Assembly (NCBI GenBank): GCA_963678705.1 | Contig: OY783222.1 | Span: 13,525,730-13,589,729, forward strand | Reading direction: 5' to 3' | DNA length: 64,000 nucleotides | Source: Panorpa germanica | Lineage: Eukaryota > Arthropoda > Insecta > Mecoptera > Panorpidae | In this document: piece after piece, positions 19,301 to 44,489 of the stretch | Numbering within the stretch: position 1 is the first letter of the stretch | Layout of the letters: each line of letters starts with the position of its first letter | The notes under the pieces: model-generated | Databases searched by the model: none | What the model was told of the DNA's origin: nothing | The model's input: only the letters and a program-made list of their open reading frames with translations | Program-made: the position numbers and the translations under genes

Positions 19301-22300
19301 TCTTTTCAGCAACACTCTCATCCCCAAATAGTTCTCTCATATCTCTACGTATCAATGTTACAGTAACTGTCACAATAGCACCTGCTGTTACAACAGTTGG
19401 ATTTTCGTCATCAATAACTAAAATAAAAACAACTAGATAAATATAAACGTTAACCAAAGAATGCTATTATTATTACAGATAATATGGATATTTATAACAT
19501 ACTCTATAGATTATATATAGATCAATAGGTCCGGATTTATATGCATTTGCTTATTTATATCTACGCTTTGTACATCGCATTAGAAGTTATTATGCTTGTT
19601 ATTATTTATTATATATAGTTATATACCTACTAGAGCTTACCCCCGTCGCAAGCGACGACTGTCTTTTGTGTGTGAATTGAATTTCATTTCAAATTTCAAT
19701 TCCATTTTTAAATTTAAATATTAAACTCGTTCTATATATATTTTACATATAACAACAAATAATTTTTCATATAAACTGACTAAAAAAATATTTTTTTTCC
19801 AATTTGTTCATTATTTGACCAACTTCTTTTCAAAATTTGGATTTTTTTTTCGATTTGTAATGTAAATTAGGTACCAAAGTTAGCCCAATAAAATTTCAAG
19901 ATTCTAACCCTATCTTTACCCTCGGCAAAAACCGCCCCCGTGCCACCAAATAAAATTTTTGAATTTTGAAATTTTTTTTCTTAATAACATATTTCATTAT
20001 TATGTATTCCAAAATGTGAGTTTTCTCCAAAATTTTCTACCGCGCCCCCTAATTTTCTCAACTCCCCCTTTTCCAATTTTTTAATTTCTAATTTTAAAAG
20101 CATTAAACACCGTAATACACGTGCAAAATTTCAACTTTCTATGTTTTATGAATTAAAATTTTATTTAATTATTAATTAATTATTTTAATTAATTTTTCCA
20201 AAATTACGGGTATCCAGGAAATTCAGGGAAAAATCCGAGGACGTCAAAAGTCTTAAAAAAAATTCTCTACGAAATAGACAATTTTCAAGAAAATGCTCCG
20301 TTTTCGAGCCACCATACGAATCGTGTAAACATATAAACAAATAAACTTTCAATTGGAACATTATAATATAGGATATACCTATTACATTATTAGTTATTGC
20401 ATACTTGGAGACAAAATGAATCGATTATAGTAACTTTTATTTTGCATATTTAACTCGATTTTACTAATATTTGTCGCATATTTTAATTTTATTGTTTTAT
20501 TTTAGGTGTTAACGACTCGATTTACATATTTACAATGATTTGTTGTAGGTGTTTACTCTGACTTTACGACTTGATAGCGAGATAAATATCAATGAAGCAA
20601 TAAAGTTTAATAAGACACTCCAAGTAAATTACGAGTCTCACTCATATGAGCATTATAGTTTAGTAGTCTTGGGATTTACTTTTACATTTACAGCTCTCTA
20701 ATACTGGACATATATTACACATATTTAAAGATTTTATTGCATATAAATCAGGGTCCTGATTATAATTACTAAATACCTTCACTCTGCACATGGAAATCTA
20801 TACACGGCATAGCTCCAAGCACTTTCATTACATTATCGTATTCAAAGTCACTGAGGCCTCGTAGCACTGATCTTCGTTCGTCACTAGGTAATTGAGCAAA
20901 TTGTTGTAATGTTTTAATATGCCTCTTCTTAGCAGTAAAATATTTTAAAGAGTCATCGCTTATATAAGGCAATTGCAGCAATGGACTTTTAATTGGCCAA
21001 AGTCCTTGAATTATCATCGGTGATAATTTCATACAGTTTTCAATTGTTTCTATTGTTAGCAGACGTTGAACTATAAAAAGATTAAAAATATATAAGTAAC
21101 CGGTAAATAAAATGGCAATATTATAAACCCTAGAACTCATCAACTCTGTTCGTACGCTGTAGGAATCTTATAAAATTGATTTTTCACTATTTAGATGTCT
21201 CGGAAATCATTCTCTTCCTTATGAAGAAACGAAGAAATTCATGTATGATAAAGTTTATAATCAAGAAAGGGTGGGGCGCATATATCCATGAGTGATGAGT
21301 CCTTGAATTAATTAATATACAATATGACATACTTCTCCTTGCGTATGCTAGCACTATAAGTTGATTAACACAGGATACCATTTCTTGGATTAGATAAGGA
21401 CATTTCCTAACAATAAATTGTCTATCCATTTCTAAAGTGTTGGGATTCAATTTCATTCTTGTAAGATGAGCGTGAATAATTGCACGAGCCTTCAAGGAAT
21501 ACAGACGACACAGAGGCAATTCCTTGCTTTTCTCATTAAGATTAGGTAGTTGTTTAATCAGCTATTAGAGAATTATAGATGTTTAGACTTTAAGTAAAAT
21601 TTTAAACTATATTTTCACTATATTTTATACTTACTGCGGGAACCTCGTCATTATCACTTTGTCTCTCAACAACCTCTGAATTATGTCGCTTATCAAATTC
21701 TAAACTAGCGGCTAATATCATTATAGCTCTTTTTAGTGGCATATTTGGTGTTTTGTGAAAGAAATAGTAATACATCTGCGTAGTATCCACCAATACCTGA
21801 TCTCCAGAGAATCGTATTGAACGATACCACCAAATTCCAACCTGTCAATGAAAATATAAATACATTATTTACAACAAAAAATTGTCGCATAAAATTATAA
21901 AATAATATACTTACAGCAACAGGTAAAATAACCATAAACACAAGAGCATAGAGTCCTAAAACCCAGACAGAGTTTTCTTTCTCTACTATCCATGAAGGTA
22001 ACGCAATACCAAAAGACATTGCACCAGGTCCATCAGGATTACCATATTTCTCCCAATTTTTTCGAGCCTCTTCATCTGTTAGAGCCTAGCATTTAAATTA
22101 ATAAAACTAATGTAAGTCGGTATATTTAATAAGAACAAATATGCTTTTACCGTTATCAATAAACATATGTATTAAAGCAATTAAGTGGAAGCACAGGTTC
22201 AATTAGTACCTGATATGCTTTAGTGAGTTTCATAAAGGCTTTCTCGTCACCAGTTTCCTTATCAGGATGCAAAATAACGGATAACTTTCGGTACGCCTTC

Positions 22301-22745
22301 TTAATTTCTGCTTGCGAAGAATCCAAAGAAACACCAAGAATTTCATGCGGATCAAAATTTGACATTTCGTAATCAAATTGTGACACTTTGTAGGCTAAGA
22401 AAATTAACAATAACCACCCCGAAACTATTGAAAATTTTATGAGAAACTGTTTGACGCCCTTGTACGGCTCTGACGCCTGCATAATATGTTTTTTCCTTAA
22501 GCATTCTGGACACGAGCACTCTTGTGATGATTTCTCAGGATCTAAAATCAAATATCAAATTGACACATGAATTACATCAGAATTCTGTCACCAATTTTGT
22601 AAGTATTTATAATAATCATACCTTCTTTTCTTTTTCGGGGCCAATAATAAAATGTTGCCGGTATTAAGATTAAAGCAACAAATGATAAAAGAAAGTAAAA
22701 AAATGTACCACCACTTTCATCATACTGAAATTTTTGTCCAGCCAT
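16339..22745 (-). CDS. SEC63: Translocation protein SEC63 (ER J-domain membrane protein), complete
   Basis: Eleven minus-strand exons: 22622-22745 (ATG 22743-22745), 22210-22541, 21915-22085, 21635-21841, 21333-21561, 20777-21070, 19294-19417, 18828-19208, 18667-18754, 18419-18584, 16339-16508 (stop TAA). The sum is 2286 nt, 761 aa, close to human SEC63 (760). Visible features: N-terminal MAGQKFQYDESGGTFFYF with a first membrane segment; a second membrane segment at about 77-93; a J domain at about 102-165 with the HPD motif at about 133-135 (ILHPDKE); a third membrane segment at about 190-210; the Sec63/Brl domain (LLQLPYISDDSLKYF); an acidic/lysine-rich linker; and a C-terminal part with EYWWTYICDRK and CLRSDSYLGMDQ ending in acidic DDEVDD. 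Family role: with SEC61/SEC62 it recruits lumenal BiP for protein translocation into the ER. The last intron (1.9 kb) holds transposon remains. Donor of exon 8 is GTTAAT. Head-to-head with akirin. Confidence 0.95.
16778..17176. mobile_element. Possible degenerate terminal-inverted-repeat element in SEC63 intron 10
   Basis: The left edge reads GTATGGTACAGACTGGTGCC and then GCGACA. The right edge reads (inverted) AGTATGGTACACATCGTGCG. A second GTACAGACTACTGCGACAT occurs internally at about 16895. No coding frame. The ends are imperfect and no target duplication was defined. Confidence 0.35.
17530..17645 (-). repeat. Dispersed repeat R (one of four copies)
   Basis: Read on minus it gives CGGCCTATTTTTGATGCTGAGTCCTATCACCGATG, then TTGGCAACTTTTGGACGTCG, GTGGCCTCATATACG and GTGGTGCACC. 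The same order recurs at 24567-24730, 31405-31575 and 38011-38210. Probably a fragment of a transposon; ends not defined. Confidence 0.5.
17690..18200 (+). pseudogene. Fragments of a non-LTR retrotransposon endonuclease (jockey-like)
   Basis: Near 17727 the plus strand reads PKYRFYQTMHPEATAHGRAA followed by ILIRDNIGGDILV. This matches the pattern of the apurinic endonuclease domain of jockey-type elements ('...HP.G.A.GG.AI.I...I'). From 18030 a second piece, KKTPCLIDVCVTKGISYD then ECESSLELSS, matches the end of the same domain ('LLDFAI.KGI...S.LELSSDH'). Between them the frame is broken and the reverse transcriptase part is missing. It is a dead insertion in the last SEC63 intron. Confidence 0.6.
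19630..20373 (-). mobile_element. Helitron, full-length with both ends (SEC63 intron 6)
   Basis: The clearest copy. On minus: A|TCCTATATTATAATGTTCC at 20373, ending CGTCGCTTGCGACGGGGG then TAAGCTCTAG|T at 19630. The 3' hairpin CGTCGC/GCGACG lies about 11 bp before the end, and the host bases are A and T as expected for Helitron insertion between A and T. It is 744 bp with no coding frame. It lies in the intron between SEC63 exons 20777-21070 and 19294-19417. Confidence 0.85.
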
Positions 22746-23414: not shown

Positions 23415-24963
23415 ATGGCGTGTGCTACTTTGAAGCGTACACTGGAATGGGAGACACTTAATCCACGCCCCTCCAAAAGGAGGCGATGCAATCCTTTTGG
23501 ATCTCCATCTACAAGCAATGCAAATATGCGAGTCTCGGAGACCCGGCCGTCTCCATTTGATGAAAGTTCATGTCCAAAACTAACCCCGGGTTCGTCCTTT
23601 TTTTTTTGTTTACCTTTATGTCATTTCCATAAAACATAATTTTAAATAAATATATTTTTCTAATTAAATAGAAAAAATGGCTGCTAATATTCGTGAAGAA
23701 ATTCGAAGACTGCATAAACGTAAACAACTTAATTTTAATAATCAAGGACTGGAGCGTATGCAGGATTCCGAATCTAGTGGATCAGAAATGGGAGCAGATA
23801 GCCCTCGCCGTCCCGAGAGTCCTCCAAGCCTTATGCGTCACCCAGAAAAGGCCTTATTTACATTCACACAGGTGATAGATCGTGGAAAATTAATTTTTTA
23901 ATTGTGTCATTCCTTTATATTAATTATATGAATATATAAACAGGTCGGTCTGATATGCGAACGAATGCTCCAGGAGCGTGAAACAGCACTTAGGGAACAA
24001 TATGACCAAGTGCTGACGGTCAAACTTGCAGAACAGTACGACGCTTTCGTTAAGTTCACATACGATCAGATTCAGAAGCGTTACGAAGCCACCCCCAGCT
24101 GTAAGTATTATATAATTAGGGAGATAAATCAACAAGTAACGTTAGAAGGTAGTTTGTTATTGTTGCTGCAATAAATTGTTCTTAATTGCAAAATAACAAA
24201 AGTGTCCATTTTGCTAAAGTGACTAATGCAGCTTTATGTTATATTTCTTGCATTGTCACGACATTCACTAGGTCATCTTTTTAATTCAAAACGCGCTACA
24301 ACCTAGAGTAGAGTATGCTGTAATTAAATAAGGAACTATATGTGCTAAAAATGTGTAAACTAAAATTTATAATAAGGGGCCATCCATTAATTATGTCACG
24401 CTCAAAGTGGGGGGAGGGCAATATGTGACAAGAAAAGTGGAGATGAATTCATATCTAATTTAAAATTCGAGTTTAAAAAGAAACAAAATAAGAAGCCCCC
24501 CCCTTCAACTTCATTAATCCACAATGTGCGATAAACGCTAAAGGGGAGTGTAACTATGATTACTTATTTAACGTCGGCCTATTTCCAATGTTCCGATGTT
24601 GAATTATATTCTCGGTGATCTCTCGACGGCCTCCTACTATTGTTAGCAGTTTTTATGGTGGTCTACATCACTGTTCATCAATTAAACTTTGACAATAACC
24701 AACCCCAGACAATATAATTCTGGTTATTATTATTCATGAATTGTATTAGTGTTATACTCATTAAAACAAATGAATATCGCACTAGTCCAAACAATGAATG
24801 ACGCATGACGTCAGAGAAGAAAATTACAAAATAAGGCGCTTAGTTTATGGATGACTCTTAACAACTGTTTTGTTACTTGTCAAATGTTAACGCTCCTTTA
24901 CAAAATAAGTGTATTATTTGAACATGATTCTGAAATTTTTTTTTTCTTGCAGATCTTTCTTAA
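23415..24963 (+). CDS. akirin: Akirin (nuclear transcription cofactor), complete, 180 aa
   Basis: Exons 23415-23589, 23672-23871, 23944-24100 and 24953-24963 (543 nt including the stop). The last exon is only 11 nt and supplies the final YLS plus TAA. The protein begins [13 protein letters not shown] and has the nuclear-localisation cluster [14 protein letters not shown]. Its middle reads [18 protein letters not shown], and it ends [20 protein letters not shown]...[15 protein letters not shown] and YEATPSYLS, the conserved akirin tail. In flies and vertebrates akirin is nuclear and bridges NF-kB/Relish or other factors to SWI/SNF chromatin remodelling, including immune genes. Length and domain order are normal. 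The third intron (852 bp) carries a degenerate repeat at about 24380-24730. All joins keep the frame. Confidence 0.96.
24380..24730 (+). repeat. Transposon-derived repeats in akirin intron 3, including repeat R copy 2
   Basis: 24378-24440 reads GGGGCCATCCATTAATTATG then TCACGC and a G-rich run, a motif I know from dispersed insect repeats. 24567-24730 is repeat R: GTCGGCCTATTTCC, CCTACTATTGTTAGCAGTTTTTATGG and ACATCACTG. Confidence 0.45.
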
Positions 24964-27660: not shown

Positions 27661-30600
27661 TCATGCTTCAAAATTTAAGACATATTCTTTAAGTGAACCG
27701 GGTAAATTCAATTTAGATGCACAAAGAGCTGGCTTACGTTTAACACTGTTATAAATTTGAAGTCTACATAATTGTTTTAAAGTTCGTGGCTTTTTATATA
27801 AATCAGATATTAAGGACATTAATACTTCAGTAGATTTGACTGGAACCTGAGCTATGTATTGTGTATGTAAACTTTTTAAACAATTATACAAAGGTTCATG
27901 TTCCATAGACATATAAAAAAGATAAACAATTCTTGCAAAAGTTGCACTTGGATCAGTCAGAATAGTTTCCTTTTTTGTTAATAACGATATATAATAATAA
28001 AGTATATAATTTCTGCAGTTATTTTTAAAAGAACCACGATTGTTATCTGCTACATACCTTTGACCATCTTCCAAACTTTTATTAGATAAACAAGTGTTAG
28101 GATCTGCACCATATTGGATTAATGTTAAAGCTAATTCGTAAATACAACTCATATCTCGACAACTTCTAACATTTTGTATCATATCCATAACAGACTGTAA
28201 TATATGTTGAGTTGTACTTGACATTCTAACATTGCAATCAAGACCATGTTGTAACAGTAATACTAATAAATTTTTGATAAAATCAAAGTTTGCTTTCTTT
28301 TGTACGTCACAATTTAGTGTTATATTTTCGCTGACGGTAAAAATTAAAACATGAAGAGGTGTTAAATTTGACCTATATGAACAATTGGGACTTGCTCCAT
28401 ACTGCAACAATATTCTTATGCAATTCAAGTAGCACACCTGTGAAATAAAGATCATTGTTTAATATATAGACTATTTCAAAACATTCGGAATGCAAAACCA
28501 AATTTCATGCCTTCATAGTATGTGTGAAATGATGTAAGGGATCCTTGTTAATTAATGGAACTAGGCAGACCATTATAGGCACTGAACCATCACGTCCCAC
28601 CCGATTTGGTTCACCTGTAAAATAAAAGAATGTCACGTCAAAAGTATGATTAATATTATTCTATGATGAACTATTTTGCGATAGAATCAATTCTCAACAG
28701 ATAAATTAAACAAACCTCCAAGTGATAACAACATATTTAACAACTCATAGCAGACATCCCAATCACGCACGTGCCTTAGTACACAAGCAAGAGCACTGTT
28801 TCCCTTCTCATTAATAGAAACTTTTGCACCAGCTTGCAGTAGATAACGAACTAAATGTAGAATATCCCATTTGTTCCATTTGTCATAACCGTATCTATAA
28901 TTAATACAATCCTATAATTATATTATCAATAATTTCAACTGCATGAAACATGGTAAGGAAATACCTTGCTTCCTCTAGAGCATATCGTACAATAAGTGCA
29001 TGTAGTGGCGTATTTCCTAGAGTATCGGGATCATTTATGAGATCTTTGTTACTATGCTCTAAGAGTATTCTTATTGTGTTTAAAGTGTCTTCTGCAGATT
29101 TACGAGCCACTAGAAGCACTGTAAAATTGAAAAAATAAGAACCAACTCTTAATTACTACAGTACCACAATACTACATACTGCCCCGTATTAAGCCTTCAA
29201 CGGCCGCTACATAAACAATCAATTCGCCCCCTCTTCATAGATATTATAACTAGAGTTTACCCCGTCGTAAGCGACGACTTTCTTTTGTATGTGAATTGAA
29301 TTTCATTTTAAATTTTAATTCCATTTTTCAATTGAAATATTTAACTCGTTCTATATTAATTTTTCATATAATAAAAAATATTTTCAATTTATGCGTTACT
29401 GGAACAACTTTTTTTCAAAAGTAGGGATTTTTTTTCCGATTCGTAAATAATTTACCAAGGTTAGCCTATATACAAAATTTGAACTTTTTAGTCCAATTTT
29501 TATTCTCGGCAAAAATCGCCCCCGTGCTCTCAAATAAAATTGAATTTGATTTTGAATTTATTTTAATTTGAACGCCAAAAGACAATTTAAAGAAAATGCG
29601 CGGAGCCGTTTTCGAGCCACCATACAAATCGCGTAAACATATAAACAAATAAATATACACCTGGAACGTTATAATATACTAGATGTACTAGAGTTTACCC
29701 CCGTCGCAAGCGACAACTGTCTTTTTTGTGTGAATTGAATTTCATTTCAAATTTTAATTCTATTTTTAAATTGAAATATTTAACTCGTTCCATATTTATT
29801 TCACATATAAAAACAAATAATTTTTCTATGACTATAAAAATATTTTTTTTTTTAATTTGTTCAATATTTGACCAATTTTTTCTTTCAAAATTTGGGACTT
29901 TTTTATTTCATTTGTAAATTAGGTACCAAAGTTAGCCCACATACAAAATTTTAACTTTCTAGCCCAATTTTTACTCTCGACTAAAACCGCCTCTGCGCCT
30001 CTATTTTTCTTAATATCATATCTAATTATTACACAATTTGAGTTTTCTCCGAAGTTTCCTACCTGGCCCCCTAATTTTCCAAAAATGTTAGTATTGAACA
30101 ACGTAATACATATGCAAAATGTCAACTTTCTATCTTTTAAATTAATTAAAGTTATAGAGCAAAAAGTAATTTTTTTTTTAGTTTTCCAAGACTGCTGATT
30201 TCCAGGAAATTCAGGGGAAACTCCGAGGACGCCAAAAGTCTTAGAATTTTTGATCTACGAAATAGACAATTTTCAGGAAAATGCGCGGAGCCGTTTTCGA
30301 GCCTCCATACGAATCGCGTTTCACTTGGAACATTATAATATGGGATGATTAATTATTATTATAATTATTGTATTAATATATATTAATTTTTTTTTTTTTT
30401 AATTTCTTTTAGGTCCACGCAAAATTCATTGTTCTAGTCACATAGCCTATCTGAAACAACCTTTTCTTTTCTTTTGTAGCAATAAACCCTAACACATTTG
30501 TATTAATTGTCTTAATGGTTAATCCGGGACTGACGTATAACTGGACCGGACCTGATGTATAATTTATTATATAAATTAAGCCGCACAGGCCAGTTTTGTA

Positions 30601-33367
30601 TAGGAAAAACTCTTACCGACATGTAGTAGAGTCATTTGCTGTGTACAGGTTTTAACATTTGTATCTGCGCCATGTTGTATAAGAAGTTCCAGAAATCGAA
30701 TATCATGTAATACAGCTTGATGCACCGGGTAAAATTCATCCTTCAAGACATGAATTTCATCGCTTCTAGTAGTAACCAAATGTTGGACACAATTCCATGC
30801 ACCTCGTTCGCACGCCAAGTGCAAAAGGGGTTTGCGAATACGGAAAGGCATCTGAGTGCAAGTGAATAGAATATTATCGGGCCACTAAGTAATATTCAAA
30901 ATGACATGCAAAAATAAAATAAACATAAATCAAATAAATATAATAAATGATATCATAATACAAATAATATTATTAAATTTTACCCATGGTTCCTCCATTT
31001 TTTGAGCTAGTATATTCAACACACCGACTTGGTCACCATCTATAGCATACAGAACAGCACCCTGCAGCTTACTTGCAGGTCTATCTATAAGACCATCGTC
31101 TTGAGCTGAAAATTGCAGAGTTAGAAGTACGAATCAGACACATACATATACTTATAGTGAATTACAAAAGATATAATACTACGCAGATTGAATAAATAGC
31201 GGAATAACCTTTAAATGCACTGTGTTGTAATAGCTAATGGATAACGGGCTTTGATTGACAAGTAGGTTAATATATGTATAACAGCTTTCGTTTTTTTTTA
31301 AATATTTAAATATTTGAATTTCGGTTTTGCCGCTTTTTCCTTCGATGTCACGGAACACCCTCGACTAATAAATATTTGATTTTTTTTTTAATACACTTAC
31401 GTACTTCTAACGTCGCCTTATTTCCGATGCTGAGTTTTATCACCGACGATCTTCTACTATTGTTGGCAGTTTTTCATGGTCTTGTGGCCTCGCATATGTG
31501 GATTACACCACTGCTTAATAATTTTATGATATTTGTGTGCACAATCAAACCCAGAAAATATAGGCATAAAACATGAACGCTCTTGGCTGCTGCGTCGTCT
31601 AAATATTTGATTTTATTTTTCTACGTTTACAACGTTCATATTATGGAAACTTTATGTGTCAAACGAGCCAGCTGCAAATAACTGATACTGACGGGTATAT
31701 TTTTTAAACTCTGTTGACAATTCAAGGGAAAAAAGAGAGTAACAATCGGGTGAGGTCACAGAAAAATCTATTTTTTATTACTTTTTCACTTTAATTATTA
31801 AACAAAAAAAGTGACTATTTTATTTGATCTCCTAAAATATGACGAGTCAATAAAAAATAATTGGACATATGAGATTCTGGAAATGAACTTTATCATAGTA
31901 CGTATACATATACACAAAGATGTGCGTTTTTCAAATGCATATACTCAAAATACAGATACAAAATACCTATTTTCTATTTAAAAACCTTTTAAGAGTATAG
32001 AATTTTATATTTATTTTAAAACTTTTACAAACCTATTTCCTATTTGGAAAATTCAAAATACTTTTTTTATTTTTGTTACATCATAGTGTTAATCCGACAA
32101 CCCACAAACCCACAAAGTTTGACAAGGTGTTGCAAGAACAGAGATGAGACCTCATCGACGAAAAATGAAAGATAAATTATTTGAACAAATAGTGGTATTA
32201 AAATCCGTGACATAAATAACATTTATGTTCTATGTAAATTCTAAATTCATAGATAAAAAGTATTCCATTTTCTCAAAAGTATTTTTAAAATACGTATTTT
32301 GTATTTAAATGCTAACATGAAATTTATTTTGTATTTGAAAGAGAAAAATAACGAGGTATTTGTATTTTATATTTAAATACTTTTGAAAAGTATTTGTGCA
32401 CATCGCTGCATATATAGTAGTTTTATAGAAATTAGAACGTAGTTCACAAGCCCATTTGCAATAAATATGGAGCTAATATAAAATACTAAATAGATGTATA
32501 TTATTTTAGAACGGCAGTAATCTATCTTAAACGTATTGTACGTAAATTGTGTTGTTCTTTCAGTCGCGGCCTGACTATTGACTGTCAACTGAAAGTGAAA
32601 AGTCAATACCTGCAATTTTCCTGATTTTAAAGCTTCAATATGTTCAAATATGTTTCATTAAGAGGAACATTTGCTTCAATTGTCTGATTTGCATAACAAT
32701 ATTAAAATGAATTCAAACTACAACTTATCTTCCCTTACCACTAAATTTGCCACTTTCTTCACAATTATGTGAATGTGGCCCTGGAAAACACATCCGCGCC
32801 TCCGTGTCAATTCTTGCTCCATGTCTTAAAAGAAGTTCAACACATTCTTCGTAGCTAAAATTAAAAAGGTAAATCGGTATTGTACATAGAGATACCAGGG
32901 TACATATTTTTCCATCGTCAAAGTTGCTCTCACCCTTTAAGGCAGGCAATATGTAGAGGTAAAGAGCACGCACTGCGATTTACATCTAAGTTATGTCTGG
33001 TAAGAATCCATCGTATTAAATCTACATGATTTAATCCAACGCATTTCTGCAGAAGATTATAACCAGCTTCATCGTGAATGGCCAGAATGTTTTCATACTA
33101 AATGCATGAATATTCATAAAACAGATTTATTTAATGCATTATAAATAAAATAGAAATATAATAATAATAATGGCAATAAAACAAAATCACCTTCGGAATT
33201 TCCAGTAGCAAGGCTTCTAATCTTTGTAAAGAAACCTTAGGATTTGCCCTTAGTGCGTCAAATATAGTATTAATTCTTTGACTTGTACCTTCTGATATTT
33301 TATGTCCATGACTATTTGACAAAAGAGCACTGCCACTACGGAAAACTTGACTAACAGAACCACCCAT
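27661..33367 (-). CDS. Ankyrin-repeat and SOCS-box (ASB-like) protein, intact copy A, 675 aa
   Basis: Nine exons: 33191-33367 (ATG), 32934-33097, 32739-32854, 30984-31105, 30617-30851, 28965-29118, 28716-28894, 28511-28614, 27661-28437 (stop TGA). They total 2028 nt with a single open frame. Exon 8 to 9 requires a GC-AG intron (AAG|GCATGA). The N-terminus reads MGGSVSQVFRSGSALLSN and lacks a signal peptide. Ankyrin repeats run from about residue 60 to 550: SLPLHIACLKGYEECVELLL, KPLLHLACERGAWNCVQHLV, GNTPLHALIV, LLQYGASPN and others. The last ~42 residues are a SOCS box (PRTLKQLCRLQIY...LNLPGSLKEYVLNFEA). Family role: ankyrin repeats bind a substrate and the SOCS box recruits elongin B/C-cullin 5, forming a ubiquitin-ligase adaptor. 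The exact ASB orthologue is not assigned. Introns hold two Helitrons and a hAT remnant. Confidence 0.85.
28438..28510 (-). other. GC-AG intron of the ASB-like gene
   Basis: The 73-bp intron has donor ATGAAG|GCATGA and acceptor TTTCACAG|GTG. No GT donor near it restores the frame, whereas the GC donor gives ..HTMK|VCYLN.. and makes the whole nine-exon sum divisible by three. Confidence 0.65.
29250..29678 (-). mobile_element. Helitron copy in ASB-A intron, 5' end eroded
   Basis: CTAG end at 29250 with hairpin remnant (GTCG-TAA-GCGAC). Read on the plus strand, the other end reads GGAACGTTATAATATA and lacks the final GGAT. Internally deleted relative to 19630-20373 (about 430 bp). It lies 10 bp from the next copy in the same orientation. 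Confidence 0.7.
29688..30345 (-). mobile_element. Helitron copy, tandem with the previous one
   Basis: CTAG end at 29688-29691 followed by AGTTTACCCCCGTCGCAAGC with hairpin. The 5' end is at about 30345 (GGAACATTATAATATGGGAT on plus). The shared GCCAAAAGTCTTAGAATTTT block is at about 30230. The tandem pair is absent from the duplicated copy B of this intron, where AATTCGCCCTCTCTC runs on into host sequence at about 36720. Confidence 0.75.
31405..31575 (+). repeat. Dispersed repeat R copy 3
   Basis: ACGTCGCCTTATTTCCGATG, CACCGACGATC, TACTATTGTTGGCAG, TGGCCTCGCATATGTGGATT. It is matched by 38011-38210 in duplicate B, so it was present before the duplication. Confidence 0.5.
32133..32213 (+). 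pseudogene. hAT transposase remnant (C-terminal tip) in ASB-A intron 3
   Basis: The frame reads RPHRRKMKDKLFEQIVVLKS, the end of the hAT dimerisation domain. The longer homologous piece is at 39019-39226 in duplicate B; here the upstream part has been lost. Confidence 0.55.
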
Positions 33368-34182
33368 GTTAAATTATTCACTTAATTTAATAATCGCATA
33401 TTAATTGTCATTTTTAATTTATAGCAATTAATTTAAAAAAGGTTTCTTAACATCATTTCGTTATTAAACATACTGATTCCAAATAGGGTTAAGTCATATA
33501 CTTAATTTGATCATATAACATTTAAATCAGGTTTAACTTAAGTAGTTAATTTATACACACCCTTGTTTACATTTCTTCGTTATTTATATTTGCACTGGTT
33601 TTAATGAGACAGTTTACCATTACAACTAAACTAATAAACTTGATGCAAAAATATCATTGACATATTTTAATCAATTTTAATTGTATGATTGTGACAGATT
33701 GTGAATTTAATAAGTTCACAGATGTAGTTTGTTTAAAATATGTCATAAAGTTTTCACTCTGCAATCTTGATCTTAATAGCCCGTAAAGATACTCTCCTGA
33801 ATTTTCAGCTGTACTCACTGTACTCCAACTCCAGCTGACCTGACCTATTATCTCTGCAGCTGACAGGGCTGACAGCTTACTTGACTTTATTTTATCTCCG
33901 TACTTTGTGGTACTTTGCTTCGTTTGACGTTTGTTCGAAGAGTTAAAGCGTATTAAGCAATATAAGGGCTTGTTAAGTTTTATATAAGAAATTATGTGCA
34001 AATATAGATTTCCAGTGACATTTATATAAACGTTTCAAAAAATATTTATATGTGTATACATATGCATAACATTTATAAAGCTAACCTAAAAATGAAACAC
34101 TGACTTACGACCCCCTACAGTTTCGAATACGAGCAACATGTGCAATATTTGTTAAGATTTTCCACGTTCGAAAAGTATTATA
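33368..34182. promoter_or_regulatory. Head-to-head promoter region of ASB-A and the DONSON pseudogene
   Basis: 815 bp between two divergent start codons. It is very similar to 40863-41561 in copy B, including a conserved block at about 33760-34180 (CAATCTTGAT, TTTTCAGCTGTACTCACTG, CCAACTCCAGCTGACCTGAC). It presumably holds both promoters. No core element was assigned with confidence. Confidence 0.5.
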
Positions 34183-35390
34183 ATGACTGACAAAGGGTAA
34201 ATTATTTCCTCCTGGAAAACTCCAGAAGAGGTAAGTCTCGTATTCAACAAGCAGCCTTATACTGGACTCATCCATCATTACCTGGAGAAAAGTTATTTCC
34301 TAGAAAAACTAGACAAGGTGCACTACTTAGCGAATGGGCAGATAGTTTTAGATCTTTGTTTCAGGTGACATTATTATGTAAGATTTTTACCTGTTGATTG
34401 TTTTACATACAGTTTTAGACTTGTAATTTATATTGTATTTTATATTTAGTTATTACGAGCGAAGCAGTGTCGTTATTTTTATTTATGTGCAAATAGTTTT
34501 ACTGCACTTTTTCGTGCTGCTGGAGTTGGGGCGAGGTTGAGGCTCATGTTTTTATAAGTCCAACAACTCAAGGCTTTAGACAAATTTTAAAACAAAAAGG
34601 TAACTTCGTCTTATTTTATTATTTATTCTTTTATTATATTATATATTATCCTATATTACAATGTTCCAACTGTCCTATATTATAATGTTCCAACTTTATA
34701 TTTATATGTTTGTTTGTTGCTGAAATTCGTATGGTAGAATGAAAACGGCTCCGTCAATAAAAATATAAAGTTGGAACATTATAATATAGGATATCAAAAT
34801 AAAAAATATTTTCAGTTTATGCGTTATTTGACCAACTTTTTTTCAAAATTTGGGATTTTTTTTCGATTGAAATGAAATTACGAACTTTTTTATTAAATTG
34901 AAATCATACTCACTAAGAAGAAGTCGCTAGCGACGAGGGTAAACTCTAGTTTATTTATATTTTATGTATATGTAAACATAAAATATGTTACATACATGTA
35001 ATATTTAATATAAGCTGGACTTAATATTATTTCATGTATTTTTATGTATAATATTTCATGTATGTATTAACGTTACATTTTTTATTTACCGAAGTACATT
35101 GTCACATTGAGGTAGATTTGTTACATTGTCATTAAATTAATGCAAAAAAACACTTAAAATCTATTAATGATACATTACTTTAATATGTAACATTAAATAA
35201 TCTTGCATAAAAAGTTAAAATTACGCCAGAAAAGGCAAATTATATCTAATCATATATTTTCTTTGTAATGTTACTTTATGTATACCTAAAAATGTTTAAC
35301 GCGATAAAAGTATAATTCCTTATTTTACAGATATTGCATTTACAATGCCTTTACGAAAATCATTTAAACAAAACAAATTCACCTAAGGGA
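34183..35390 (+). pseudogene. donson: DONSON pseudogene (copy A)
   Basis: It starts like the intact gene at 41562 but codon 6 is TAA (34198-34200; GAA in the intact gene). A deletion joins the exon-1 donor region (34228) straight to the middle of exon 5 (GTCTCGTATTCAACAAGC), losing exons 2-4. A further 26 bp are lost from exon 5 (after AAAACTAGA at about 34312), one G is missing in exon 6 (GTTGGGGCG), and a Helitron sits in the following intron (34649-34949). The remnant of exon 7 (TTGCATTTACAATGCCTTTACG) breaks off after about 60 bp, where the ASB-B sequence begins. It cannot encode DONSON. Confidence 0.9.
34649..34949 (+). mobile_element. Rearranged Helitron in the DONSON pseudogene
   Basis: A|TCCTATATTACAATGTTCC at 34649, and a second start motif 24 bp later. 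An inverted piece (GGAACATTATAATATAGGAT at about 34773) lies in the middle, and the end is GTCGCTAGCGACGAGGGTAA then CTCTAG|T at 34949. Absent from the matching intron of the intact gene (about 43190), so it inserted after the duplication. Confidence 0.75.
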
Positions 35391-35999
35391 TCCTTGTTAA
35401 CTAATGGAACTCAATGGAACTCGACAAACCATTATAGGCATTGAACCATCACGTCCAACCCGATTTGGTTCACCTGTAAAATAAAAGAATGTCACGTCAA
35501 AAGTATGATTAATATTATTCTATGATGAATTATTTTGCGATAAAATCAATTATCAACTGATAAATTAAACAAACCTCCAAGTGATAACATATTTAACAAC
35601 TCGTAGCAAACATCCGAATCACGCACGTGATTTAATGCTAAAGCAAGAGCACTCTGTCTCATCCTATTAAGAGAAAGTTTTGCACCAGCTTCCAGTAGAT
35701 AAAGAACTAAATGTAGAATATCCTCTTTGCTCCATTTGTTATTATGGTGTCTATAATTAATAATATATAAGAAATACAATCCTATAATTATATTATGAAA
35801 AATTTGAACTGCATTAAACATTGTAAGGAATTAACTTGCTTGCTCTAGAATATATCGTATAATAACTGCATGTAGTGGCGTGTTTCCTAGAACGTCGGGA
35901 GTATTTATGAGATCTTTGTTACTATGCTTCAATAGTAGGCTTATTGTGTTTAAAGTGTCTTCAGCAGATTTACGAGCCAGTAGCAGCACTGTAAAATTG

Positions 36000-37240
36000 A
36001 ACATATAAAAACCAACTACTATAATACTGTTAATAAATGTATGCAATATTCATATTTGTATATCAATATCTTGCTTTTATTTTTAATTAATGTTAGAATT
36101 AAGATTTCTTTGTCTCAATTCATTTATATTTTATGCCTATTTGTTTTTATATACACTGCTCGCCGTGGGCAAACCATAACATTTCTTATGTAAACATCCT
36201 TTGTTTTACGATTCATTTCTACTAGGCATCGACACTACGTTTTTGTTCCTAATTAGTTCTTATTGCTTCAACACTCAAACCTACAGCACGCTTAACCTTT
36301 TGGTGCATAAACATAAAATAATAATTACACATATTTTTATTTATAACTCAAACCACGAGTTACATTTACTTAGTGTCGTAACTAGTATTCTTATCAACTA
36401 AAGTATTTAATCAATTTATATGTAATTCAATAGTGTAGTTTAGAATAAATGTAATCTAAAAAAGTTCTGATGTTTTGCTGTGTCTTTTGATATAAAGAAA
36501 AAATAACTATTAATTACTTAATACTAAGCTATTGAAACCACTTACCACTAAGCTATTGAAAGGGACTGAGCGACATTTGCCGTTCGAGAATTTGGATACC
36601 GCCGACAGATCGCAGATACGCCCTAGCCAGCCTATAGATCTCTATAAGGTCCAAACTCCGCAAACAAACACTACATACTGCCCCGTATTAAGTCTTCAAC
36701 GGCCACTATATAAACTATCAATTCGCCCTCTCTCCCAATTATTTGTTTAAATTTCTTTTAAGTCCACGTAAAATTCGTTTTTCTAGGCACAAATGCATTT
36801 CAACCTATAAGAAACAACCTTTTTTTTTTTATTTTGTAGCTTCCACACGAAGAGAAATTTCCTTTTCTTAGCTCCCACACGAAATAAATTGTATCTGGTT
36901 ACAATTGGCTTCATTGAATCTGGTCCCACCAAATTACGTACCATAAACATTTGTATAGTTCAAATTGCGAGAGTTCGGCGGCGACTCATACATGAAACAA
37001 GTTGTGGAGTATAAACTGCCGATATAACTAAAAAGCACTGACTCACTTATTTTTCTATAATGTATATAGTTATAGAAACGAATAAGATAAAATTCATCAT
37101 CGTATAGATTTATACCGCTCTTATAGCCTCTTTTAAGTATAAGTCGTCGCCGAACTATCGTGATATCGGGCCTGACTACATATAATTTATCATATAAATT
37201 AACTTATAACTGGCCAGTTTTGTATAGGAAAAACTCTTAC
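36000..37240. other. Intron of ASB-B with extra sequence relative to copy A
   Basis: Between the exon 6 and exon 5 equivalents. The segment at about 36660-36830 (TACTGCCCCGTATTAAG, AATTCGCCC) aligns with both sides of the Helitron pair in copy A (29170-29240 and 30380-30480). 36060-36650 has no counterpart that I can see in copy A. No coding frame. Confidence 0.4.
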
Positions 37241-38010
37241 CGACATGTAGTACAGTCATTCGCTGTGTACAGGTTTTAACATTTGTATCTGCGCCATGTT
37301 TTATAAGAAGTTCCAGAAATCGAATATCATGTAATACAGCTTTATGCACCGGGTAATCTTCATACTCCAAGACATGAATTTCATCGCTTCTAGTAGTAAC
37401 CAAATGTTGGACACAATTCCATGCACCTCGTTCGCACGCCAAATGCAAAAGGGGTTTCCGAATACGGAATGTTGCATCTGAGTGCAAGTGAATACGCCAC
37501 TAAGTAATATTCAAAACGATATGCAAAATAAAATAAACATAAATAAAATAAATATAATAAATTATATCATTATACAAATAATATTATTAAATTTTACCCA
37601 TTTTTCCTCCATTTTTTTAACTAGTATGTTCAACACACCAACTTGATCACCATCTAAAGCATACAGAACAGCATCCTGCAGCTTACTTGTGGGTCTATCT
37701 TTAAGACCATCGTCTTGAGCTGAAAATTGCGAAGAAGTACGAATCAGACACATATACATAATTATAGTGAATTACAAATAAATAATACTACGCAGATTGA
37801 ATCAATAGCGGAGTAACCTTTAAATGCACTGGGTTCTAATAGGCTGGACTAATGGATAACGGGCTTTGATTGACAAGTAGGTTAATATATGTATAACGCC
37901 TTTAGATTTTTTTTAAATATTTAAAAATTTGAATTTCGGTTTTGCCGCTTTTTTCTTCGACATTACGGAACATCCTCGACTAATATATATTTGATTTTTT
38001 TTAATACACT

Positions 38011-38210
38011 TACTTAACGTCGCCTTATTTCCGATGCTGAATCCTATCACCGACGATCTCCTACTATTGGCTACTCTCCTAATATTGTTGGCAATTTTTA
38101 TGGTCTTGTGGCCTCGCATATGTCTCGCGGATTACACCACTGCCTAATAATTGTAAGAATTTTGTGTGCACAATCAAACCCAGAAAATATAGGCATAAAA
38201 CATGAACGCT
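38011..38210 (+). repeat. Dispersed repeat R copy 4
   Basis: Same order of blocks as 31405-31575 with a short internal duplication (CTACTATTGGCTACTCTCCTAATATTG). Lies in the ASB-B intron 3. Confidence 0.5.
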
Positions 38211-39018
38211 CTTGGCCGCTGTGTCGTCTAAATATTTGATTTTATTTTTCTACGTTTACAACGTTCATATTATGGAAACTTTATGTGTCAAACGAGCCAG
38301 CTGCAAATAACTGATACTGACGGGTATATTTTTTAAACTCTGTTTACAATTCAAGAGAAAAAAAGAGGCTGACAATCGGGTGAGGTCACAGAAAAATCTA
38401 TTTTTTATAACTTTTTTCACTTTTTTCAATTATTAAACGAAAAAAGTGACTATTTTTATTGTTAATTGTCCTAAAATATGATGAGTCAATAAAAAATAAT
38501 TGGAAATTTGAGATTCTGAAAAACAACTTTATCATATACAAATATGTTTTTCAAATACATATACTCAAAATACAAATTACCTATTTTCTATTTAAATACG
38601 TTTTATGAGTATAGAATTTTATATTTTATTTTAAAACTTTTACAAACCTATTTCCTATTTGGAAAATGCAAAATACTTTTTTTATTTTTGTTACTTCATA
38701 GTGTTATCCGTAAACATTATTTTTTTAATATAAACTTAAAACCCACAAAGTTTAACAAGGTCTTGCAAGAACAGGGGAGAGGTACAAAAAGTATAAAATG
38801 AATGGTCCCTTACATATTAAGAGCCAAGCACCGCCAGACCTACATCATTTTAGAAAGGCTGAAATTTTTTTAGCGCAAGTACCTACAGCAGGTAAGAACA
38901 AGTGACTATGAACCTTAAGAGGTACTGGCTTTGCCAGGTATATAAATTGGTGAAAAATTACGTCACAGTATAAATGCTAATTTTTTGTTTGTTTTTACTA
39001 TGTTTGTTTAACTTTGCA

Positions 39019-39226
39019 GTATTTAAAAGATAATGATACTAATTTAGATTCTTTAATTAAATATCCATACTTAAAGAAAATATTTTAAAAATTTAAGACT
39101 TGCTTACCAAGTTCTGCCACAGTAGAACGTTTTTCTTCGTTTGTAGGAATGATAACGACACCTCATCGACGAAAAATGAAAGATAAATTATTTGAACATA
39201 TAGTGGTATTAAAATCCGTAACATAA
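39019..39226 (+). pseudogene. hAT transposase fragment (C-terminal dimerisation domain) in ASB-B intron 3
   Basis: The plus frames read YLKDNDTNLDSLIKYPYLKK, then (after a stop) CLPSSATVERFSSFVGMI and PHRRKMKDKLFEHIVVLKS, ending TAA at 39224-39226. This matches the hAT C-terminal signature (LPSSA.VER.FS). Sequence upstream to about 38790 may be more of the same element but is not readable. It is a dead remnant, also partly present in copy A, so it inserted before the duplication. Confidence 0.65.
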
Positions 39227-39666
39227 ATAACATTTATAATTAGTAAGACAAAGAGTATTCTATTTTTTCAAAAGTATTTTTAAAATACGTATTTTGTATT
39301 TAAATACTAACATGAAATTTATTTGTATTTTTTTTTTTTTTTAGTAATACTTCACGGGCTTATTTTGTATTTGAAAGAGAAAAATAACGAGGTATTTGTA
39401 TTTTATATTTAAATACTTTTGAAAAGTATTTGTGCACATCTTCGCATATATAGTAGTTTTATAGAAATTAAGACGTGGTTCACAAGCCCATTTGCAATAA
39501 ACCATTTAAATGCTTATGGAGCTAATATAAAATACTAAATAGACGTTTATTATTTTAGAACGGCAGTAATCTATCTTAAACGTATTGGTAAATTGTGTGC
39601 TTTCATTCTGTCGCGGCCTGACTATTGACTGTTAAGTGAAAGCGAAAAGTCATTACTTCAAAGTCA

Positions 39667-40016
39667 ATGGGCTTATATCCTCATTTTTTAGTGGTCGATT
39701 TTTCAATTGTTGATTGAAATTGATGTTAATAAATGTGTATTGGCGTGTCTATTTTATTAAATATCTAAATGTTGACGGAGATATAGCAATTGAAAATTTG
39801 AATTGTAATTTTAACGCTAGAAATGGTCGGCCATATTTGTATGACGTGAAATGCATTTTAACGTCTTGGAATGTTCTATAACGTTGAATTTCTTTAACAA
39901 TTAAAGAGACAAAATGACGTTATTAAAAAATAATGGAACATTTGAGGTTCTAGTAACCCACTTTATCAATATATAGTACACTTTTATAGACATTAAGACA
40001 TAGGACACAAGCCCAT
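39667..40016. mobile_element. TA-family MITE M, copy 3, internally deleted
   Basis: ATGGGCTTATATCCTCATTT at one end and AGGACACAAGCCCAT at the other, about 350 bp. The corresponding place in copy A (about 32600) lacks it, so it inserted after the segmental duplication. Confidence 0.7.
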
Positions 40017-40862
40017 TTTCAGATTCTGAAGCTTTAATATGTATTAAATATTTAGAAGAACATTTGCTTCAAATTTTTTCATGTTAATCTATAATATATT
40101 TGGGTATTTGCACAAAGTTTTTCAAAATAAAATAAAATTTAAGCAAGCAGGTGGACTCTGCAGAGGATGCAACTCTGATTTGCATAACAATATTAAAATG
40201 AAAATATTCAAACTACAACTTATCTTCCCTTACCACTAAATCTGTCACTATCTTTACAATTATGCGAATGAGGCCCTGGAAAACACATCCGCGCCTTCTT
40301 ATCAATTCTTGCTCCATGCCTTAAAAGAAGTTCAACACATTCTTCGTAACTAAAATTAAAAAGGTAAATCGGTATTGTACATAGAGATACCAGGGTACAT
40401 ATTTTTCCATCGTCAAAGTTGCTCTCACCCTTTAAGGCAGGCAATATGTAGAGGTAAAGAGCACGCACTACGATTTACATCTAAGTTATGTCTGGTAAGA
40501 ATCCATCGTATTAAATCTACATGATTTAATCCAACGCATTTCTGCAGAAGATTATAACCAGCTTCATCGTGAATGGCCAGAATGTTTTCATACTAAATGC
40601 ATGAATATTTATCAAAAAAATTTATATAATGCAAAGAATATTAAATAGTAATATAACAATAATAATGGCAATAAAACAAAATCACCTTCGGAATTTCCAG
40701 TAGCAAGGCTTCTAATCTTTGTAAAGAAACATTAGGATTTTCCCTTAGTGCATCAAATATGGTATTGATTTTTTGTCTTGTACTTTCTGATATTTTATGT
40801 CCAAGACTATTTGACAAAAGAGCACTGCCACAATGGAAAACTTGACTAGCAGAACCACCCAT

Positions 40863-41561
40863 GTTAAATTATTCACTTAATAAACGCTTATTAATTTTTA
40901 ATTTATAGCAAATAATTTAAAAATTGATAGTGATTCCAAGTCATATACTTAATTTAATATTATAACATTTAAATCAGGTTTAACGTTATTTATATTTGCA
41001 CTGGTTTTAAAGAGACAGTTTACCATTACAACTAAAATAATAAACTTGATGCAAAAATATCATTGACATATTTTAATCAATTATAATTGTATGATTGTGA
41101 CAGATTGTGAATTTAATAAGTTCAGAGATGTAGCTTGTTAAAATAATGTCATAAAGTTTTCACTCTGCAATCTTGATGTTAATAGCCCGTAAAGATACTC
41201 TCCTGAATTTTCAGCTGTACTCACTGTACTCCAACTCCAGCTGACAGGGCTGACAGCTTACTTGACTTTATTTTATCTCGGTACTTTGTGGTACTTTGAT
41301 TCGTTTGACGTTTGTTCGAAGAGTTAAAGCGTATTAAGCAATATAAGGGCTTGTTAAGTTTTATATAAGGAATTATGTGCAAATATAGATTTCCAGTGAC
41401 ATTTATATAAACGTTTCAAAAAATATTTATATGTGTACATATGCATAACATTTATAAAGCTAACCTAAAAATGAAACACTGACTTACGACCCCCTACAGT
41501 TTCGAATACGAGCAATATCTGCAATATTTGTTAAGATTTTCCACGTTTGAAAAGTATTACA
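40863..41561. promoter_or_regulatory. Head-to-head promoter region of ASB-B and DONSON
   Basis: 699 bp between the divergent start codons, closely similar to 33368-34182. It drives the intact DONSON copy. The same CTGTACTCACTGTACTCC motif is kept; the CTGACCTGACC segment of copy A is deleted here. Confidence 0.5.
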
Positions 41562-44489
41562 ATGACTGACAATGGGGAAATTATTTCCTCATGGAAAACC
41601 CCAGAAGAGGTATGTCTTACCGTAGCCTCTAAACACAATCTATGAATGTTACATTTATGTAATATTTTACTTAAACAAAATCTTATAATAGTTAATCTAA
41701 ACGGGTCTTATTTTATTATTTGATACCTATTTTAAAAACATTTAATCATTAAAAAGATGTTCTAAAACTCCTACAATGTTTAAAAGAGTCTTCTTAAAAA
41801 GTTTGATGATTATGCTAATGCTCAAGAAGTTAACTTCTTTTTCAAATAGCCTAAAAACTAGGTCACAAGACTTATATTGGGTAAAATTATTTACGTAGCA
41901 AATAATTTTTGTTGTTAGATAATACACATAACAGCGGGTAGCTCAATATTGAAATAGTGTTGTATAATAATAGTTTTGGTTTTTAATTAGGTTATGAGGC
42001 TTCACAAGCTGAAGGTTCGCAAGAAAGCTCTTCAAGCTCGAATGGACTGTCCTAAGAAGATCGGGAATACAGTGTCATTAATTGCAGAGGAGCAATTTAT
42101 AGGAAAACGTAGTAATCCGTTTCTTAAGTAAGTGAAATCTTCGATTAAGTTAATCCTGCTATTATATTTATATATAAGTAATACATTTATGATAATATTA
42201 ATAGGAACACTAGTGAACAAAATAAGAGATTTAAATTTGGACCGGATTCTTCTCCAGTGACTAGAAATAATTCTTCCAATAAGAGTTTATTTGATCTTGT
42301 TACCAATACAGAACAGACAAAAATAATATTACCAAAGGAAGCCGAACCAGTAAAACAAACTGTATCATCTAAAAATGATATTTATGATTATTTAGAAGAA
42401 TCCAATGAAAAACCAAAAGTTTGTACAAAGTATTAAATATATTTTATGATGTTATAAGATGCCTATAATTTTATATTTAACAATTATTATGGCAATAGGA
42501 TATTAAAGGATTGGAGACATTGCCCGTAGATTGGTCAATAAAAACAAGAATTCGATTACTGAGCCAAGATTCAATGCCTGGACATCCGAAAACAAGCCAA
42601 GAAGCCAGCGGCTTAACAAGGTTGAAACTGTTAAATTATATTTATAATTAATTTTCATTTAAATAATAAAGTCTTTATTTTAGTTTTGTACGGTGTATTT
42701 ATCCATCTTCGTATACTGCTGATATTGGAGGCGGTAGTTTAGATACATCATTAGGAGCTCGTATTCAACAAGCAGCCTTATACTGGACTCATCCATCATT
42801 ACCTGGAGAAAAGTTATTTCCTAGAAAAACTAGAGGATCAACCGTTGTTGCCAGTTTACCACAAGGTGCACTACTTAGCGAATGGGCTGATAGTTTTAGA
42901 TCTTTGTTTCAGGTGACATTATTATGTAAGATTTTTACCTGTTGATTGCTTTACATACAATTTTAGACTTGTAATTTATATTGTATTTTATATTTAGTTA
43001 TTACGAGCGAAGCAGTGTCCCTATTTTTATTTATGTGCAAATAGTTTTACGGCACTTTTTCGTGCTGCTGGAGTTGGGGGCGAGGTTGAGCCTCATGTTT
43101 TTATAAGTCCAACAACTCAAGGCTTTAGACAAACTTTAAAACAAGAAGGTAACTTCGTCTTATGTTATTATTTATTCTTTTATTATATTATATATTATTT
43201 ATTTATATTTTATGTATATGTAAACATAAAATATGTTACATACATGTAATATTTTATGTAAACTGGACTGAATAATATTTTATGTATTATTTAATGTAAT
43301 TTTTTTTACGTAACGTTACATTTTTTATTTACCGAAGTACATTGTCACATTAAAGTACATTTGTTACATTGTCATTAAATTAATGCAAAAAACACCTAAA
43401 ATCTATTAATGATGTATACATTTTTTTAATATGTAACTTTAAATAATTTTGCATAAAAAGTTAAAATTACGCCAAAAAAGGCAAATTTATATATAAGTAT
43501 GCATTTTTTTTGTAATCTTACTTTATGTATATCTAAAAGTGTTTAACGAGATAAAACTATAATTCCTTATTTTACAGATATTGAATTTACAATGCCTTTA
43601 CGAAAATCTGAACGAAAATCATTTGAAAATTCACAAAGTATTGAAACGCAAACTGAAAATGAGAAAAACGCATCAAATATTGAAACTACTGTAAATAATG
43701 AACATGATGACGATGACGATGACGATGATGAATCTCATGAACAATGGCTTCAAAGTTTAGGAGTAGATGAAAGTGAAATAAAAAAAATTAATTATTCGCA
43801 GGCTAGAAAGGATCATGCTTCAGAATGTAAAGAAGATCTCAGTGATATGTCACTAGTGTCTGTACAGGGTCCTGATTTACAGGCATTATATAATTTTTTA
43901 TTAAACAGTAAAAGTACTGTAGGTGGTATAGGTGTAATTCCACCCACTTTGTTATCACCGACAGCGTTTTTAGGAAGCTCTTTAAAAACACTTCAAGTAA
44001 GAATAGATATTTAATATTTAGTTTATTATGCAGCAATAAGGGTTATGATCAATATCATTTTAGATACGTCACAGTCGTGTCCGAGTTGAAGGTTCAGACT
44101 ATCAAAGTATTGAGTTAAGAGGCCCAATTCTTCCAAATGCCGTAAGATCACTATGTGACGCGCTATCTTCAACTAGAGATCGGTTTAGTGTTACCACAGC
44201 AACCTCACAGGGTTCGCAGGCGCTAAGTAAAGCTGCAAAATCTGTTATAAAAAGTAAATTTTAAACATCACCTATTTGAAATAAGTTATAAAGAAATACT
44301 AATCTTATAAATACTTATTTAGATATTCCGGAAGCTGATATAGTTTTTGGATGTGAAAATTTATCTGGGTGTGGATTACCCAAGAATTTCTTACATGATA
44401 TTTGCGCGTCGAAACAAGAATCCATAACACACACAGACAGCATGCGATACAAAAGTGACCAAGGATACACGTGGGGAAATGTTGACTGA
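41562..44489 (+). CDS. donson: DONSON / humpty dumpty homologue, complete, 558 aa
   Basis: Nine exons: 41562-41609, 41991-42127, 42205-42418, 42499-42620, 42684-42912, 42998-43148, 43578-43996, 44064-44253, 44323-44489 (stop TGA). The sum is 1677 nt and all joins are in frame; human DONSON is 566 aa. Conserved blocks: LPVDWSIKTRIRLLSQ; ARIQQAALYWTHPSLPGEKL then FPRKTRG; LSEWADSFRSLFQLLRAKQC; PYFYLCANSFTALFRAAG; VFISPTTQGFRQTLKQE; IEFTMPLRKSERKS; an acidic insert (DDDDDDDESHEQWLQSLGVDE); PDLQALYNFLLNSKSTVGG; PPTLLSPTAF; ELRGPILPNAVRSL; and the tail NLSGCGLPKNFL. Family role: DONSON loads and stabilises replicative helicase and forks in the nucleus; the fly orthologue humpty dumpty is needed for DNA replication. 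This is the only working copy seen here. Confidence 0.95.

Follow-up and report, generated by a model that had tools for sequence, protein, structure and literature searches.

Tandem copies of a segment that begins and ends inside two head-to-head genes, ASB and DONSON, in Panorpa germanica

Results

Genes at the locus

The window analyzed here is a 64,000-bp stretch of Panorpa germanica DNA (0 N, 30% G+C), which lies about 13.5 Mb into one of the 249 contigs of a 464-Mb assembly. It contains, twice in tandem, a segment in which an ankyrin-repeat gene of the ASB type on the minus strand and a DONSON gene on the plus strand stand head to head on the two sides of an intergenic region. Comparison of the window with itself gave two collinear copies, A on the left and B on the right, which are similar over kilobases with a blastn E value of 0.0, and chance similarity was ruled out on that basis. 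The original prediction had reported this unit as present twice, at 27.6–35.4 and 35.4–44.5 kb. The two tandem copies are confirmed, and their limits are corrected to 28535–35361 and 35384–43608. Table 1 gives the positions of all features at the locus, where the gene models are based on open frames, splice sites and homology.

Table 1. Features of the duplicated locus, in window coordinates.
Feature	Position	Strand	Description
Tandem copy A of the duplicated segment	28535..35361	+	Right edge possibly 35382
Duplication junction	35362..35383		Transition from DONSON exon 7 to ASB exon 8
Tandem copy B of the duplicated segment	35384..43608	+	Right edge possibly 43634
ASB-A, complete gene	27661..33367	-	Exons 33367-33191, 33097-32934, 32854-32739, 31105-30984, 30884-30617, 29118-28965, 28894-28716, 28614-28511 (or to 28571), 28437-27661
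Intergenic region A, between ASB and DONSON start codons	33368..34182		815 bp, adjoins ASB-A; putative bidirectional promoter
DONSON-A, truncated pseudogene	34183..35361	+	Exon 1 with early stop; ends early in exon 7
Insertion in DONSON-A intron 6	34649..34949		301 bp, inverted-repeat sequence (GTTCCAAC... type), absent from copy B
ASB-B, truncated copy	35384..40862	-	Exons 1-6 open, no SOCS exon
Intergenic region B	40863..41561		699 bp, adjoins DONSON-B; putative bidirectional promoter
DONSON-B, complete gene	41562..44489	+	Exons 41562-41609, 41991-42127, 42205-42418, 42499-42620, 42684-42912, 42998-43148, 43578-43996, 44064-44253, 44323-44489

As shown in Table 1, the two complete genes are the outermost ones. 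ASB-A is open over nine exons and encodes 686 aa when the longer form of exon 8 is used. Its product has the two features of an ASB protein, ankyrin repeats (Pfam Ank_2, E = 3e-22) and a C-terminal SOCS box (SOCS_box, E = 1.7e-9, residues 645–682). Among the best 60 of 220 matches to solved structures, designed ankyrin proteins were at the top and ASB9 chains were found with E values of 2e-11 to 1e-10; because designed proteins lead these matches, the predicted protein is not assigned to a subfamily. Intron 8 of ASB-A (28438–28571) begins either with a GC donor (AAG/GCATGA) or with an in-frame GT donor 60 nt upstream, as counted by hand.

DONSON-B is open over nine exons and encodes 558 aa, with GT-AG at eight of eight introns, where the donor of exon 3 was picked by reading frame. 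Compared with solved DONSON chains, it matched 8q6o with an E value of 3.4e-61 and 8ouw with one of 2.4e-13, and the match to chain 8q6o_R spans query residues 135–493 of the 558, so that the similarity extends over the conserved core, as in a DONSON orthologue. DONSON is described as needed for assembly of the CMG helicase and for replication initiation in vertebrates and C. elegans, and the title of one report presents the vertebrate orthologue as essential for replication initiation (PMC10570026).

The two inner copies are both damaged. DONSON-A retains exon 1, which has a stop at codon 6. One gap of 1,142 bp removes exons 2–4 together with the start of exon 5, and there are further gaps of 27 bp, in frame, in exon 5 and of 1 bp in exon 6. 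Nearly all of exon 7 and the whole of exons 8–9 are absent. The 301-bp insert in intron 6 may be similar to a miniature inverted-repeat transposable element, judged from its sequence by eye. Close to position 30340, the minus strand carries a similar sequence.

In ASB-B, exons 1–6 are open over 331 aa, and introns 1–5 keep 10 of 10 splice dinucleotides. At the donor of exon 6, GT is replaced by TT, and a stop follows immediately. Further downstream there are a 3-bp gap in exon 7 and a 10-bp insertion in exon 8. The original prediction had described ASB-A and DONSON-B as open and DONSON-A as broken, and these descriptions hold, with the loss of the 3' exons of DONSON-A to be added. Regarding ASB-B, the broken donor, the early stop and the lack of a SOCS exon were likewise found. 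The frameshift proposed for its exon 5 was rejected, since the changes of −11 and +2 bases amount to −9 and keep the frame.

The intergenic region is thus present separately beside each complete gene, which also faces a wrecked copy of its old neighbor, in agreement with the original prediction. From the head-to-head layout alone, it is plausible that this region serves as a bidirectional promoter for both genes. When the two intergenic regions were scanned for core-promoter motifs, no decisive result was obtained.

Edges of the repeat and the missing 3' exons

As determined from alignments of the edges, the homology between the copies ends inside a gene on both sides. The left edge of the repeat is at ASB exon 8/intron 8, and the right edge is early in DONSON exon 7. 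If the GT donor is the one used in ASB-A exon 8, the left edge corresponds to the start of intron 8 and not to exon 8. The copies lie head to tail and abut, with 22 bp between the right end of A (35361) and the left end of B (35384). A possible extra match, AAATTCAC, would extend the right edges to 35382 and 43634 and reduce the gap to 1 bp, where this tail is weak when taken alone (p ~0.10, 5,000 shuffles). The locus thus combines abutting head-to-tail copies with homology that ends inside genes on both sides, as in a tandem duplication with intragenic breakpoints.

When compared with the window, ASB exon 9 had no match other than itself. For DONSON exons 7–9, the only matches besides the exons themselves were 14 residues at the truncated end of copy A (E = 0.50) and 12 antisense residues, a chance match (E = 0.24). 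The 3' flanks compared as DNA with the window gave only short weak matches of 40–63 bp (E = 5e-4 to 0.007), and no remnants of DONSON exons 8–9 or of the ASB SOCS exon were found between the copies in the window.

The genome-wide search (464 Mb) used the SOCS exon, DONSON exon 7 and ASB exon 5 as queries and scored the best candidates only. With two candidates scored, the SOCS exon had one match, that of ASB-A, and no SOCS box was found for ASB-B. The frame of DONSON exon 7 had two matches among three scored candidates, one full and the other, located in copy A, consisting of the first 24 residues. For ASB exon 5, two matches were found, both in this window, with no third copy among the eight candidates scored.

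Because the edges of the repeat lie inside both genes, a whole ASB is left on the left side, a whole DONSON on the right side, and two 5' fragments face each other between them. The locus was very probably formed by a single tandem duplication whose two breakpoints fell one in each of the head-to-head genes, an event that yields whole outer copies and truncated inner copies in one step. Since the outer copies are intact by geometry, a choice between copies is not needed, and the presence of each gene once in complete form is most likely due to the position of the breakpoints and not to a later choice.

The original prediction had explained the same arrangement by duplication of the whole two-gene unit, followed by independent reciprocal decay of alternate copies. 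The end state of one complete copy per gene is what such decay would give, and both inner copies do bear small lesions besides their truncation. However, the missing 3' exons of the two genes meet at one abutting junction, so that independent decay did not remove them, and edges inside both genes force the pattern by themselves. For reciprocal gene loss, each gene must first have been complete in both copies. At this locus, no second 3' exons were found in the window, nor a second SOCS exon or a second full DONSON exon 7 in the genome, and the junction of at most 22 bp has no room for them, although an earlier, larger duplication is conceivable. Independent reciprocal decay was therefore rejected as scarcely credible.

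That larger duplication would have held both genes whole, and one later deletion across the middle would have cut off the 3' end of DONSON-A along with that of ASB-B. It also truncates both inner copies in one event and leads to the same final structure as the single duplication, and the separate 1,142-bp gap in DONSON-A shows that deletions do happen at the locus. This sequence of events nevertheless needs two structural changes although a single one is enough, the window showed no remnant of the deleted middle part, and the genome gave a single SOCS-exon match; it is regarded as quite improbable.

Divergence between the copies

An alignment of A with B and a count of synonymous differences had been proposed beforehand in the original prediction, and both were carried out. 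The alignment shows 348 substitutions over 4,914 aligned columns, a divergence of 7.1%. This count leaves out gap columns, the parts of A below 28535 and above 35362, and A 29148–30557, where the alignment is disrupted by inserts. The substitutions are clustered: their dispersion is 2.81, whereas 5,000 shuffles gave a mean of 0.92 and a maximum of 1.53. Segmentation, run after masking 10 columns with 2 substitutions, divided the alignment into stretches of 8.7% (242/2,782), 3.8% (68/1,783) and 10.6% (36/339).

The longest stretch with no more than one substitution covers 260 columns (A 32855–33114, p = 0.0002). The 145 columns upstream of the DONSON start (A 33990–34136) have no substitution (p = 0.006, null maximum 176). 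ASB intron 2 has none in 79 columns, and exon 2 and intron 2 together differ at 1 of 243 columns, despite the truncation of ASB-B. ASB intron 1, which also lies in the low-divergence stretch, has 13 differences in 93 columns. The simplest account of this patchiness, as far as the alignment tells, is probably that gene conversion acted between A and B around the intergenic region and the 5' exons, in a direction that would have to be read with an outgroup.

At an insect mutation rate near 3e-9 per site per generation, a divergence of 8.7% would correspond to roughly 15 million generations, a value to be read as an order of magnitude only.

The divergence also bears on the question of whether the ends of two haplotype contigs were falsely joined in tandem during assembly. 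A false join of overlapping haplotigs would give the same geometry of whole outer and truncated inner copies. However, the window contains no N and the join would lie about 13.5 Mb into the contig, and outside the low patch the copies differ by 8.7–10.6%, which is high for alleles. DONSON-A moreover has a stop, the 1,142-bp gap and the 1-bp gap in a gene whose vertebrate orthologue is described as essential for replication initiation, and the assembly yielded a single full DONSON exon 7 and a single SOCS exon. An assembly artefact is thus highly improbable.

The truncated ASB copy

The common exons of ASB-A and ASB-B differ by 28 synonymous and 70 non-synonymous changes, and the ratio of non-synonymous to synonymous substitution rates (dN/dS) is 0.75, with a bootstrap range of 0.46–1.24 (2,000 resamples). 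The count excludes codons starting at 30840–30884 (an indel stretch), gapped codons and codons reaching below 28535. Such a ratio is expected where one copy is unconstrained. Exon 7 (28716–28894 in A and 35575–35750 in B) differs at 27 of 176 positions, of which 24 are non-synonymous and 3 synonymous, giving a dN/dS of 2.56; the value of the other seven exons ranges from 0 to 1.23, and the neighboring introns 6 and 7 differ at 7 of 70 and 4 of 101 positions, respectively. Positive selection on the ASB pair was considered and rejected, as the overall ratio is 0.75 with a bootstrap range that includes 1, and as the donor lost from ASB-B lies upstream of exon 7.

The persistence of the open frame in ASB-B was compared with a simulation of neutral decay, run at the divergence measured between the copies. 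At 0.03, 0.05, 0.10 and 0.19 indels per substitution, the frame stayed open and spliceable in 0.057, 0.034, 0.0097 and 0.0015 of 6,000 runs, respectively. The highest of these rates is the value for intron 3 (25 indels to 131 substitutions), which may be too high for exons, as introns are probably richer in simple repeats. A cruder simulation in which any indel was forbidden (4,000 runs each), now superseded, gave 0.022, 0.005 and 0 at rates of 0.05, 0.10 and 0.19. As a sign of retained function, the open frame is at most suggestive in these simulations, and conversion from ASB-A could have reset exons 1–3 of ASB-B.

If ASB-B is alive, its predicted product would be a 331-aa ankyrin-only protein lacking the SOCS box, expressed from its own intergenic copy, which might act as a decoy by binding the target of ASB-A without recruiting a ubiquitin ligase. 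Such a decoy would be born largely in one step from the duplication. The dN/dS of 0.75 and the possible conversion of exons 1–3 count against a functional ASB-B, and we consider this role unlikely. With a possible antisense or small-RNA effect of the inner copies in mind, exact 21-mers common to these copies and the complete coding sequences were counted, and they number 276 of 2,041 in ASB-A and 115 of 1,657 in DONSON-B.

Other features of the window

A 146-bp satellite forms two arrays in opposite orientations about 370 bp apart, at 9734–10673 (6.4 copies) and 11044–12557 (10.4 copies). An exon with a DnaJ domain (Pfam E = 9.6e-17) is located at 22156–22554 and presumably belongs to SEC63. 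The frame at 23932–24174, which resembles akirin, had no Pfam hit at 0.001.

Discussion

The ancestral locus would have consisted of one ASB gene on the minus strand and one DONSON gene on the plus strand, arranged head to head. One tandem duplication of about 7–8 kb, whose left breakpoint fell at ASB exon 8/intron 8 and whose right breakpoint fell early in DONSON exon 7, would then have produced both copies. The outer copies would have retained undisturbed 3' ends and stayed whole, while the inner copies would have lost theirs at the junction. From birth, DONSON-A would have been without most of exon 7 and exons 8–9, and ASB-B without the SOCS exon. DONSON-A, freed of function, would subsequently have gained its stop, deletions, frameshift and transposon-like insert, and ASB-B would later have lost its exon-6 donor with its first six exons still open. 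Patches around the intergenic region and the 5' exons would later have been homogenized, probably by gene conversion. The doubling of the formerly shared intergenic region, one copy for each complete gene, would be a by-product of the duplication.

Several points weigh against this scheme. The ancestral state is inferred, and a larger duplication with one deletion across the junction leaves the same structure. The patchy divergence could partly reflect differences in mutation rate or constraint on the promoter, and ASB intron 1 does not fit one simple conversion tract.

The arrangement means that apparent reciprocal gene loss can arise in one mutational step from the position of the breakpoints. 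Claims of reciprocal loss in tandem repeats should accordingly begin with a check of whether the edges of the repeat lie inside genes. The locus is also a clear example of a split head-to-head pair, in which separate intergenic copies would allow each direction to evolve on its own. The duplication would in addition have supplied a ready-made decoy lacking the SOCS box if ASB-B is expressed. No report of such an arrangement was found among the papers retrieved on DONSON and bidirectional promoters or on divergent pairs with tandem duplication, which is no proof of absence.

The end state resembles reciprocal gene loss, or divergent resolution, in that one complete copy of each gene remains and the two come from different duplicates; unlike in reciprocal gene loss, the inner copies were, on the best reading, never complete. 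Uneven divergence, in which long stretches and even an intron are nearly identical, is also a feature of duplicated pseudogenes homogenized by interlocus gene conversion; the direction and the date would here require an outgroup.

Divergently paired insect genes are described as having start sites under 1,000 bp apart (PMC2670823). The genes at this locus are likewise head to head, with 815 and 699 bp between start codons, where the published distance refers to start sites. Unlike the pairs described in that source, the pair here is split, and each complete gene has a separate intergenic copy.

The products described for tandem duplications include chimeric genes, recruited non-coding sequence and 'dual promoter genes' (PMC4503668), and partial gene duplications have been described in Drosophila (PMC6380325). 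In D. yakuba, 1,004 of 1,116 tandem duplications were reported to capture genes or parts of genes; whole-gene duplications numbered 66 and chimeric genes 76 (PMC5460883), and these counts make gene-cutting duplications appear ordinary. As in these gene-cutting duplications (PMC5460883, PMC4503668), intragenic breakpoints would have led to partial copies at the present locus, where the junction lies between two 5' fragments, each from the promoter side of its gene, that face one another. The published surveys concern segregating variants, whereas the copies in Panorpa germanica have diverged by 7.1%. The locus belongs to this known kind of gene-cutting tandem duplication; it differs from those surveyed in that both breakpoints hit a head-to-head pair, so that both neighbors are still present once in whole form and there are two copies of the intergenic region.

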